Below are positions 18,360-53,121 of a stretch of 53,614 nucleotides of DNA, piece by piece. The notes under the pieces were generated by a model, which saw only the letters and a list, made by a program, of their open reading frames with translations, had not been told where the DNA came from and did no database searches. Position numbers and translations under genes: made by a program. Source of the DNA: Candidatus Galloscillospira excrementipullorum (lineage in GTDB: Bacteria > Bacillota > Clostridia > Oscillospirales > Feifaniaceae); the NCBI GenBank assembly GCA_018714125.1, contig DVNV01000052.1, forward strand, positions 1 through 53,614, given 5' to 3'. Each line of letters starts with the position of its first letter. Position 1 is the stretch's first letter.

Positions 18360-18500
18360 GATATCTCCTCACTTCCCCTTGTTGGTTTATCCTTTGTGGC
18401 GATACAAAAATTCTCCCGGCTTGCCTTTTTCATCCTTAAATTTATTATAATACAGTGCCCATTTTGGCGCAAGAGAAATCTGGCTCTCCCCCTTTTTTGC

Positions 18501-18529
18501 GCATAACGCCTGGCTTTTTGCAAATACTA
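18501..18529 (+). promoter_or_regulatory. Candidate sigma-G/F-type promoter upstream of spoVAC (GCATA-N17-AATACTA)
   Basis: Compared with Bacillus consensus gHATR-N17/18-CATWHTA: full -35, 6/7 at -10. Confidence 0.55.
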
Positions 18530-18567: not shown

Positions 18568-19023
18568 ATGAACATGAGCAAGCAGGCCTATCAGGCCTAT
18601 GTCAAAGAAATTTCTCCCCCCTCCCCGCTCGGCAAAAACATGCTGTGCGCCTTTTTGGTGGGGGGTGCCATCTGCACGGTGGGACAGTTCTTTTCCAACT
18701 GGTACACGTCCATGGACATGGGCAAGGACGCCGCCTCCACCGCCACCTCGGTCACGATGATTTTCCTGGGGGCGCTGCTGACCGCCCTCAACCTCTACGA
18801 CAACATCGCCAAATTCGGCGGTGCCGGCACCATCATCCCCATTTCGGGCTTTGCCAACTCCATCGTCTCACCTGCCATGGAGTTCAAAAGCGAAGGGCTG
18901 ATACTGGGCCTTGCCGCCAAGATGTTCGTGGTCGCGGGGCCCGTTCTGGTCTACGGCATTCTGACGTCCAGCGCCTACGGGCTGGTGCTCTTCCTCATCG
19001 GGTGGCTTGAGGGGGTGTCGTGA
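18568..19023 (+). CDS. spoVAC: Stage V sporulation protein AC
   Basis: GGAICTVGQFF...TMIFLGALLTALNLYDNIAKFGGAGTIIPISGFANSIVSPAMEFKSEGLILGLAAKMF. Confidence 0.95.
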   Translation: MNMSKQAYQAYVKEISPPSPLGKNMLCAFLVGGAICTVGQFFSNWYTSMDMGKDAASTATSVTMIFLGALLTALNLYDNIAKFGGAGTIIPISGFANSIVSPAMEFKSEGLILGLAAKMFVVAGPVLVYGILTSSAYGLVLFLIGWLEGVS

Positions 19024-20042
19024 TGATTCAAAAAGGAAAAACGCTACTGCTCGAAGGCGGCGCCGCCATTGTGCAAAGCGCGGCCGTGGCGGGAAAAAAG
19101 GAGGGCGAGGGGCCGCTTGCCGACACCTTTGACCGCATCGTGCGCGACCCCTACGCCGGGCAGAAGAGCTGGGAAAAGGCCGAAAGCGAGCTGCAGAAGC
19201 AGGCTGTCACGCTGGCGCTGCAGAAGGCGGGGCTTGAACCCGGTCAAATCGACCTCATGCTGAGCGGCGACCTCATCAACCAGTGCACCCCCTCCTGCTA
19301 CGCCGCCGCCCCGCTCGGCATTCCCATGCTGGGCCTGTTCGGCGCCTGCTCCACGGCGGCCGAGAGCCTTGCCCTGGGGGCGCTGCTGGTGGAGTCCGGT
19401 GCGGCAAAGCATGCGCTGTGCCTGACCTCGTCGCACTTCTGCACGGCCGAAAGACAGTTCCGCACCCCCCTGGCCTATGGCGGGCAGCGCTCCCCCACCG
19501 CCCAGTGGACGGTGACGGGGGCGGGCGCCTTTGTGCTGGGCCGGGAGGGGGCGGTCAAAATCAAGGGTGTGTGCGTGGGGCGGCCGGTTGACATGGGCAT
19601 CCGCGACGTCTCCAACATGGGCGCCGCCATGGCCCCGGCCGCCTGCGACACCTTTGCCCGCTTTTTCCAGGACTCCGGCAAAACCCCCGCAGACTTCGAC
19701 CTCATCCTGACCGGCGACCTCGGCTCGGTCGGCCACCGCATTGTCCTTGAGCAAATGCGCGCGCAGGGCATTCCCCTGGGAGACCGCTATCAGGACTGCG
19801 GCCTGCTGGTCTACGACGTGGAGCGGCAGGACATGCACGCCGGGGGTTCTGGCTGCGGCTGTTCTGCCGTGGTGCTGGCCGGACACGTCCTGCGCTCCAT
19901 GAGGGAGGGGCGCTGTTCCAACGTACTGCTGGCCGGGACGGGGGCCCTCATGAGCCCCATGTCGCTGCAGCAGGGCGACGCCATCGTGGGCATCGCGCAC
20001 CTTGTCTGGCTGAGTGCCGACGGGGGTGCAGGCCCCTCCTGA
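19020..20042 (+). CDS. spoVAD: Stage V sporulation protein AD
   Basis: Thiolase-fold SpoVAD: DRIVRDPYAGQKSWEKAESELQ, LFGACSTAAESLALG, SSHFCTAERQFRTPLAYGGQR; overlaps spoVAC stop (start 19020 GTG or 19023 ATG). Confidence 0.95.
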   Translation: MMIQKGKTLLLEGGAAIVQSAAVAGKKEGEGPLADTFDRIVRDPYAGQKSWEKAESELQKQAVTLALQKAGLEPGQIDLMLSGDLINQCTPSCYAAAPLGIPMLGLFGACSTAAESLALGALLVESGAAKHALCLTSSHFCTAERQFRTPLAYGGQRSPTAQWTVTGAGAFVLGREGAVKIKGVCVGRPVDMGIRDVSNMGAAMAPAACDTFARFFQDSGKTPADFDLILTGDLGSVGHRIVLEQMRAQGIPLGDRYQDCGLLVYDVERQDMHAGGSGCGCSAVVLAGHVLRSMREGRCSNVLLAGTGALMSPMSLQQGDAIVGIAHLVWLSADGGAGPS

Positions 20043-20113: not shown

Positions 20114-20153
20114 ACAAAAAAAGCGCCTGCGGCCCCAAAGGTGCCGCAAGCGC
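20114..20153 (-). terminator. Minus-strand terminator of small ORF
   Basis: On minus: GCGCTTGCGGCACC-TTTG-GGGCCGCAGGCGC-TTTTTTTG. Confidence 0.7.
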
Positions 20154-20223
20154 CGGCAAAATGCGGGTGTTCTCTGTTGGAGGGCCGCCTCCCCCCTCTT
20201 TTTTGCCTTCTCCCCTTTTTCCT

Positions 20224-20430
20224 CTATCCGAACAGGCGGGCCAGCAGCAAAAACAAAAACTGCAGTCCGAACATGACTCCCGCCAAAAAGAGAATCAGGC
20301 GCAGCATACGCTGGTATTTCTTCTTTTTGAAAAAATCCCCCAACCCCTGCTTGGTGTCCTGCACAAATTCATGCCGGGAGAGCAGTTTGCGGTATCGCTT
20401 CATCTGCCGTCTTTCCTGTTCAGGGGTCAT
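20224..20430 (-). CDS. Small (68-aa) single-TM protein, antisense orientation inside spoVA cluster
   Basis: MTPEQERRQMKRYRKLLSRHEFVQDTKQGLGDFFKKKKYQRMLRLILFLAGVMFGLQFLFLLLARLFG; RBS gggagg; own promoter and terminator. Confidence 0.68.
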   Translation of the reverse strand: MTPEQERRQMKRYRKLLSRHEFVQDTKQGLGDFFKKKKYQRMLRLILFLAGVMFGLQFLFLLLARLFG

Positions 20431-20507
20431 CGCGTGTTCCTCCCCGTTTGGGCAGGGCATCGCCGGCCTGTGTGCGCCGTGCCGTCTGCCTGATTTTTGT
20501 TATCGTC

Positions 20508-20536
20508 ACTATACCAAATGTGAGCCGCCGCGTCAA
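20508..20536 (-). promoter_or_regulatory. Sigma-A-type promoter for small minus ORF (TTGACG-N17-TATAGT)
   Basis: Reverse complement of actataccaaatgtgagccgccgcgtcaa; 5/6 and 5/6 with 17-bp spacing. Confidence 0.65.
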
Positions 20537-20561
20537 GGCGACCATTAAGGAGGCTTTGCCC

Positions 20562-20924
20562 ATGTTGTTTCAAAACCTGCTGCCCGCCTTCGTGACGGGC
20601 GGCCTCATCTGCGCCGCCGCCCAGATTCTCATTGACAAAACCAATCTCACGCCGGCGCGCATCGTGGTTCTCTTCGTATCGCTGGGTGTTGTGCTGACCG
20701 GCCTTGGGCTGTATGACGCCGTCGTGGACTTCGGCGGCGCCGGCGCCACGGTGCCCATCGTGGGCTTTGGCTACGCCCTGGCAAAGGGCGTGGAAAAGGG
20801 CATTGCGCAATACGGGCTGGCCGGCATCCTGAGCGGCGGCATCACGGCTTCGTCGGCAGGCATCGCCGCCGCCGTCATCTTCGGCTGGCTGGCCGCCGTG
20901 CTCTCCAAATCCTCCGCAAAATAA
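20562..20924 (+). CDS. spoVAE: Stage V sporulation protein AE
   Basis: FVTGGLICAAAQILIDKTNLTPARIVVLFVSLGVVLTGLGLYDAVVDFGGAGATVPIVGFG; RBS aaggagg. Confidence 0.93.
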   Translation: MLFQNLLPAFVTGGLICAAAQILIDKTNLTPARIVVLFVSLGVVLTGLGLYDAVVDFGGAGATVPIVGFGYALAKGVEKGIAQYGLAGILSGGITASSAGIAAAVIFGWLAAVLSKSSAK

Positions 20925-20942
20925 CCTCTCCCCCTTACAGAA

Positions 20943-20986
20943 AAACAATCCGGCAGGCCGCATTGGCCTGCCGGATTGTTTTTCTT
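20943..20986. terminator. Terminator after spoVAE
   Basis: aaacaatccggcaggcc-gcatt-ggcctgccggattgttttt. Confidence 0.9.
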
Positions 20987-21012: not shown

Positions 21013-21597
21013 TCAGCTCTCCGCCGGCCCCCCCTGCCCGCAGGCCTTTTCCCCTTCCGCCGCCAGCAGCTCCTGCGGCCGCACCAGGACGATGCGGCGC
21101 TTCCTGTCCCTTGCGTAACGCAGGGTGTATTCGGTGCCTCCGCCGGGCGCACCGTCATAAACGGCCAGCAGCGTCTGGGCGCGGTCCACGAGGTAGCGGT
21201 TCCTCTCCTGCATGCAGCCCGGAAAATAGCTGCCGTTGAGATAAAACGCCTCGTCGGCCTGCTCTAAAATTTTATGGTAGAGGCTGCGCTCACGCAGGGG
21301 CCAGCCTGCCTCCTGCCCGTAGCAGGGCAGCACGCAGTGCAGGGTCACCTCGGGCTTGTAGCGGCGCAGGCGCAGCACCTGCTGCGCATACCAGATATCC
21401 ACCCCTTGCGCCATGCCCGAAAAAAAGTGGATGATGCCGTGCTCATAGTACAGCGCCAGGATGTGCTGCCGCAGGCCTTCGGCCAGCGCCTTTGCGGCGG
21501 GGTCGCTGCTGCGGCGTATGCCAAGGCGCGCGGGACGGTGCCCCGTAACGGAGCAGGCCCTGCTCTCGTCAACCTTTTTCAGCGCCATACCTTCCAC
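21013..21597 (-). CDS. SLOG-fold (YpsA/DUF1273-like) protein
   Basis: CSVTGHRPARLG, FFSGMAQGVDIWYAQQVL, LLAVYDGAPGGGTEYTLRYA. Confidence 0.82.
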   Translation of the reverse strand: MEGMALKKVDESRACSVTGHRPARLGIRRSSDPAAKALAEGLRQHILALYYEHGIIHFFSGMAQGVDIWYAQQVLRLRRYKPEVTLHCVLPCYGQEAGWPLRERSLYHKILEQADEAFYLNGSYFPGCMQERNRYLVDRAQTLLAVYDGAPGGGTEYTLRYARDRKRRIVLVRPQELLAAEGEKACGQGGPAES

Positions 21598-52687: not shown

Positions 52688-53121
52688 TGTGTTTTTAGCC
52701 TCCTCAACAAATTTTGTGTTTTGTCCCCGTTTTGCGGGGCGGCAGGCGCCTGTTTTTTTGAAAAATTCCGCCTGCTTGTAGAGTCGGCGACTTTCGCGAT
52801 TTCTTAACACCCAGCCGAGTGTCTCACATGATGGCACAAAAAATCCGAAATTCCGCGGCTGGATATTTCGGACAACCAAACCCCTGCTCTCCCCTGCTCA
52901 TCGTGTGCCGCAAGGCACATTGCCGCCCGTGGGAAAGCGGTCGCATCACGGGGCGGAAGCTGCCTTCCGCCTTTCGCTGCTCGCTTATGTCGCGCCCGAT
53001 GACCGGACATACTCTGCGGAAATTCCCCGCGCAGCGCGCGGCAACCTCCCGCTTCATCGCATTTGACTCCTGGTCGTGCTCCTGGCAAAAAATGGCGCAA
53101 TTCGCCCCCTTTTGCCTAAGC
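52688..53121 (-). promoter_or_regulatory. Long structured rpsJ (S10 operon) leader
   Basis: ~430 nt between predicted TSS and rpsJ ATG, with multiple perfect hairpins and an internal terminator-like element. Confidence 0.65.
52838..52872 (-). terminator. Putative attenuator in S10 leader
   Basis: Minus strand TCCGAAATATCC-AGCCGC-GGAATTTCGGA-TTTTTTG. Confidence 0.7.

Follow-up and report, generated by a model that had tools for sequence, protein, structure and literature searches.

We found that the spoVA operon in the analyzed window is interrupted, between spoVAD and spoVAE, by a gene on the opposite strand with promoter and terminator sequences of its own, and conservation and coding selection indicate that this gene (hereafter the mini-gene) encodes a real small membrane protein. 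The window, a stretch of 53,614 bp corresponding to contig C36, belongs to a genome (G000) of 1.6 Mb in 99 contigs that is 97.6% complete; it was compared with G003, a sister species of the same genus, with the congeners G001 and G002, and with G004, from another genus of the same family. We proposed that a vegetative mini-gene was inserted antisense in the operon, that spoVAE would still be reached by read-through, and that the two transcripts would be mutually exclusive; we consider this combined account somewhat probable. The spoVAC-spoVAD-spoVAE genes are among the most conserved sporulation units, with the last two normally lying end to end in the order, and the operon loads spores with dipicolinic acid; at this locus, growth-phase and spore-phase transcripts should oppose each other.

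Family models showed that spoVAC, spoVAD, and spoVAE all lie on the plus strand of the window, as the preliminary description had read them, and the wide spacing that it had noticed was measured at 519 bp between spoVAD and spoVAE, with spoVAC and spoVAD overlapping by 4 bp (table 1). Beyond the operon lies a convergent gene for a YpsA-type SLOG-family protein, which is fast-evolving (dN/dS 0.29 between G000 and G003).

Table 1. Positions of features in the window, with the basis for each assignment.
Feature	Position	Strand	Basis
Putative SigG/SigF-type promoter, CGCATA-N17-AATACTA	18500..18529	+	11/13 SigG positions; 2/200 shuffles as good
spoVAC	18568..19023	+	PF03862, E 2e-42; TIGR02838, 163.8 bits vs. 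cut-off 164
spoVAD	19020..20042	+	PF07451, E 8e-135; TIGR02845 above cut-off
Mini-gene intrinsic terminator (predicted), stem-loop then T7	20116..20154	-	Fold; minus-strand equivalents in G003 and G004; stem-loop ~20154-20122, T7 run 20122-20116
Mini-gene ORF, 68 aa	20224..20430	-	ATG at 20430; homologues at the equal site in G003 and G004; dN/dS 0.069
Mini-gene RBS, GGGGAGG	20439..20445	-	Sequence; GGGGAGG in G003, AAGGGGA in G004
SigA-type promoter (predicted), TTGACG-N17-TATAGT, extended -10	20508..20536	-	10/12 matches; both hexamers identical in G003
spoVAE RBS, AAGGAGG	20547..20553	+	Sequence; ~10 bp from the mini-gene -35
spoVAE (spoVAEb)	20562..20924	+	PF03862, E 2e-32; TIGR02839, 127.9 bits vs. 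cut-off 131.1
Strong hairpin terminator, 3' end of the spoVA operon	20940..20984	+	20-pair stem
YpsA-type SLOG-family protein gene	21013..21597	-	
S10-Clostridia ribosomal protein leader, near the window end	52987..53065	-	RF03136, 46 bits

The self-contained antisense unit suggested in the preliminary description was confirmed as a predicted minus-strand unit that is complete within the gap, comprising a promoter, an RBS, an ORF with coding capacity, and an intrinsic terminator. The -35 hexamer (TTGACG, 20536-20531) and the -10 hexamer (TATAGT, 20513-20508) are separated by a 17-nt spacer, with a TG ahead of the -10, and an equally good promoter score was obtained in just 2 of 1000 shuffles of the 130 nt upstream of the mini-gene. 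An in-frame ATG at 20460 would give a 78-aa version of the protein; lying upstream of the RBS, this ATG is probably not the true start. The terminator fold has a free energy of -29.6 kcal/mol over 66 nt (z = -2.9), and no T run follows the stem on the plus strand; as the T run is present on the minus strand only, transcription of the plus strand should pass through the terminator. All three copies of the unit (G000, G003, and G004) retain the TTGACG -35 with a good -10 (TTGACG-N18-TACAAT in G004), an RBS, and a hairpin followed by a T run. The terminator sequences are entirely different among the three genomes; their direction is constant.

We addressed the reality of the mini-gene through its conservation and selection. 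Both G003 (85% identity) and G004 (31-35% identity) carry it in the spoVAD-spoVAE gap, oriented as in the window, so the positional check proposed in the preliminary description came out in its favor. The alignment of the G000 and G004 mini-proteins scored 84, compared with 65 for the best of 5000 shuffles in which the soluble and membrane parts were kept separate. Between G000 and G003, 29 of the 43 nucleotide differences fall at third codon positions, and the dN/dS of 0.069, the second proposed check, likewise favors a gene, being lower than the values for spoVAD (0.147) and spoVAE (0.106). The length of the ORF by itself is not significant (at least 68 aa in 142 of 1000 shuffles); despite this unremarkable length, conservation, codon-position bias, and dN/dS rule out a chance ORF. 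Coding in a different frame was also rejected: long plus-strand ORFs overlap the gap in the window, yet no frame showed a lower dN/dS, and the next-best one, an antisense frame (0.12/0.92), contains a stop codon in G003. An assembly artefact was ruled out, as the unit is common to three separately assembled genomes. Taken together, the same-site and same-orientation copies in G003 and G004, the dN/dS, and the codon-position bias indicate that the mini-gene is a real small-protein gene.

The 68-aa mini-protein of the window has a basic N-terminus (net charge +9) and one predicted C-terminal transmembrane helix; the N-terminal half is strongly basic (net +8 to +11) and is followed by a single hydrophobic C-terminal helix. 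AlphaFold2 predicted one long helix spanning residues 3-67 (pLDDT 81). Searches against Pfam, NCBIfam, PHROGs, and PDB sequences, including a PDB profile search, returned no meaningful match, and the Pfam and NCBIfam models gave no meaningful score for membership in the SpoVA families (SpoVAA, AB, AC, AD, AEb, AEa, and AF). The opposite strand and the SigA-type promoter are also not what would be predicted for forespore (SigG) expression in the operon direction. Cargo of a phage, plasmid, or other mobile element was considered and rejected, with a best phage match of E 0.7, no plasmid match, no relative on viral contigs, and nothing significant in PHROGs. By all appearances the mini-protein is thus an orphan small membrane protein, and the mini-gene would add an unannotated family of such proteins.

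The distribution of the mini-gene was surveyed across the order, using the 109 genomes in which the spoVAD-spoVAE gap could be measured. The median spacing was ~0 bp, and the gap was below 300 bp in 106 of these genomes, none of which carried an antisense gene there; gaps above 300 bp, and antisense genes of comparable size within them, were confined to G000, G003, and G004. This pattern indicates that contiguous spoVAD-spoVAE is the ancestral state. In the congeners G001 and G002, which lack the mini-gene, the gaps measure 46 and 85 bp, no remnant was detectable within them, and a search for a relocated copy in these two genomes found nothing convincing, even with a loose threshold. A profile search that covered 394 order-level and 391 class-level genomes returned marginal matches only, most of them inside long frames or with stops, and inspection of the best order-level match revealed no corresponding small gene; among named genomes, the single match was the G003 record itself (uncultured Clostridia bacterium). 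The mini-gene is therefore lineage-restricted, and young or patchy. In the rpoB tree and in the SpoVAD/SpoVAE trees, G004 falls outside G001, G002, and the G000-G003 pair, with the branching order of G001 and G002 not firmly resolved in the rpoB tree; the agreement of the rpoB and SpoVA trees suggests vertical inheritance of the operon. The most parsimonious history has a single insertion before G004 and the genus of G000 separated, followed by at least two losses; the alternative is transfer between lineages.

The same survey brought up other irregular loci. In G026 (locus L057), a 262-bp spoVAD-spoVAE gap is occupied by ATATCGA-type repeat units with no sizeable ORF, an insertion of another kind in this operon. 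Eleven genomes have spoVAD with no recognizable spoVAE in the 1.4-1.7 kb downstream (G118, G094, G029, G017, G081, G030, G048, G066, G131, G043, and G105; loci L007, L012, L060, L050, L035, L061, L068, L071, L116, L121, and L130), and in these spoVAE may be located elsewhere, diverged, or lost.

The preliminary description had vegetative transcription of the mini-gene diverging from, or interfering with, forespore transcription of spoVAE. One point needs correcting, in that the mini-gene promoter does not compete with a visible local spoVAE promoter: no convincing forespore or SigA promoter was detected on the plus strand of the gap in G000 or G004, and in G003 the region immediately ahead of spoVAE holds a weak SigG-like match (11/13 positions; 6 of 200 shuffles as good), so we rejected a forespore promoter of its own for spoVAE. 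Before spoVAC, the window carries the putative SigG/SigF-type promoter listed in table 1, and G002 has a perfect TGCATA-N18-CATACTA at the equal place (0 of 200 shuffles as good). The G000 genome encodes a SigG-like sigma factor, whose score of 402 bits falls short of the curated cut-off (457). In Clostridioides difficile, spoVAC-spoVAD-spoVAE is a SigG-dependent unit, with a SigG promoter before spoVAC (PMC3789822, PMC4959285). The gap showed neither a strong plus-strand terminator common to the copies nor a known RNA family. In the window, a poorly formed plus-strand hairpin (-20 kcal/mol) precedes a TTTTT near 20500, but G003 and G004 do not share it. Two of the three copies have a C-rich plus strand across the gap, so Rho could act there. 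Given the SigG-type promoter before spoVAC and the one-way terminator of the mini-gene, spoVAE is most likely still reached by read-through from spoVAC-spoVAD. As no local spoVAE promoter is visible, the conflict to be expected is with this read-through, and a conflict between mini-gene transcription and the spoVA message is plausible.

Building on the observed conservation, coding selection, and position of the mini-gene, on its promoter and one-way terminator sequences, and on the forespore-type promoter sequence before spoVAC, we infer how the locus may have arisen and how it would be transcribed. The common ancestor of a small group of Clostridia would have had spoVAC-spoVAD-spoVAE in uninterrupted order and would have received an antisense insertion, a small-protein gene equipped with a SigA-type promoter and a one-way terminator; some of its descendants would later have lost the gene. 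In growing cells, a short minus-strand mRNA would yield the 68-aa membrane-anchored basic protein, whose role is presumably vegetative and separate from that of the SpoVA channel. In the forespore, transcription would start at the SigG-type promoter before spoVAC, continue through spoVAD, cross the mini-gene, and enter spoVAE, so that the operon mRNA would include the full complement of the mini-gene mRNA. Polymerase collision and cleavage of double-stranded RNA, as in a noncontiguous operon, would then make the two transcripts mutually exclusive. Against this model, read-through of 519 untranslated bases could fail at the plus-strand hairpin near 20500 or through Rho, G003 has the weak SigG-like match ahead of spoVAE, and the presence pattern demands either one gain with at least two losses and no remnant in G001 or G002, or transfer.

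Our leaning is towards mutual exclusion, which would follow physically from the layout itself. The main rival reading is that a real vegetative small-protein gene landed here by chance and survived as its one-way terminator permits, with no regulatory role for the overlap. Such a tolerated passenger would fit the lineage-restricted presence with apparent losses, the self-contained unit, and the lack of any sign of the mini-gene in the rest of the genomes sampled from the family, order, and class. However, position and antisense orientation were kept across two genera despite a protein identity of 31-35%, although a kept position is also expected if nothing moved the gene; we regard this reading as possible but doubtful.

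The two roles offered in the preliminary description are disfavored. A membrane protein embedded in the spoVA operon and retained there in two genera might be taken for a partner or modulator of the SpoVA channel; however, spoVAD and spoVAE are adjacent, without the mini-gene, in G001, in G002, and in over 100 further genomes, its promoter is of SigA type rather than forespore type, and antisense transcription in the forespore would oppose the mini-gene, which makes a channel partner very unlikely. A unit acting mainly as a transcriptional insulator, in which minus-strand transcription halts leaky spoVACD read-through into spoVAE during growth, would make sense of a promoter directly before spoVAE that fires towards spoVAD. 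The strong purifying selection on the protein, which an insulator does not need, would be left unexplained, and the layout is missing from nearly all relatives; we consider insulation as the main function extremely improbable. Returning to the preferred model of antisense insertion with read-through and mutual exclusion, a further step would be a developmental noncontiguous operon with mutual silencing of the vegetative membrane-protein mRNA and the forespore spoVA mRNA through their antisense overlap; the orphan protein would thereby be off in the forespore, and the SigA-to-SigG switch would tune how much spoVAE is expressed. We put this forward tentatively and rate it as rather unlikely in this full form. 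More generally, a conserved antisense protein gene within spoVAC-spoVAD-spoVAE would represent an evolved noncontiguous operon with two promoters of different cell fates and, if confirmed, would mean that an opposing gene can be tolerated, or even exploited, within an important developmental operon.

A noncontiguous operon contains a gene that is read from the other strand, and the two messages regulate one another through polymerase collision and RNase III (PMC7154746); an example is menE-menC-MW1733-ytkD-MW1731 of Staphylococcus aureus (Saenz-Lahoya 2019, reviewed in PMC7154746). In its predicted organization, the spoVA locus matches the structural definition: operon genes on one strand are interrupted by an opposite-strand gene in three genomes, and the interspersed gene has its own putative promoter and, as judged from the RBS, terminator, and dN/dS, encodes a protein. 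As in S. aureus, a mid-operon gene lies on the opposite strand with its own promoter, and its mRNA would fully complement an internal untranslated stretch of the polycistronic message. Unlike that case, the present one is drawn from sequence alone, the operon is a spore operon whose opposing promoters would be separated by cell type, and the inserted protein is an orphan. The SigB-driven as-comK of Bacillus subtilis, described as part of a noncontiguous operon (PMC11633097), likewise consists of two overlapping opposed units under different sigma factors; in that system, experiments demonstrated an overlap that blocks a competence regulator, whereas here a spore channel operon is concerned and the argument is a genomic one. 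Genes, gene order, and a forespore-type promoter before spoVAC agree with the spoVA operons of C. difficile and Clostridium perfringens in the excerpted text of PMC4959285 and PMC3789822, which mentions no antisense gene. C. difficile has a 166-bp spoVAC-spoVAD gap with a suspected internal promoter, whereas a coding antisense unit lies between spoVAD and spoVAE here. Compared with these systems, the new elements are the setting in a spore operon, the pairing of promoters of different cell fates, and the orphan protein family.
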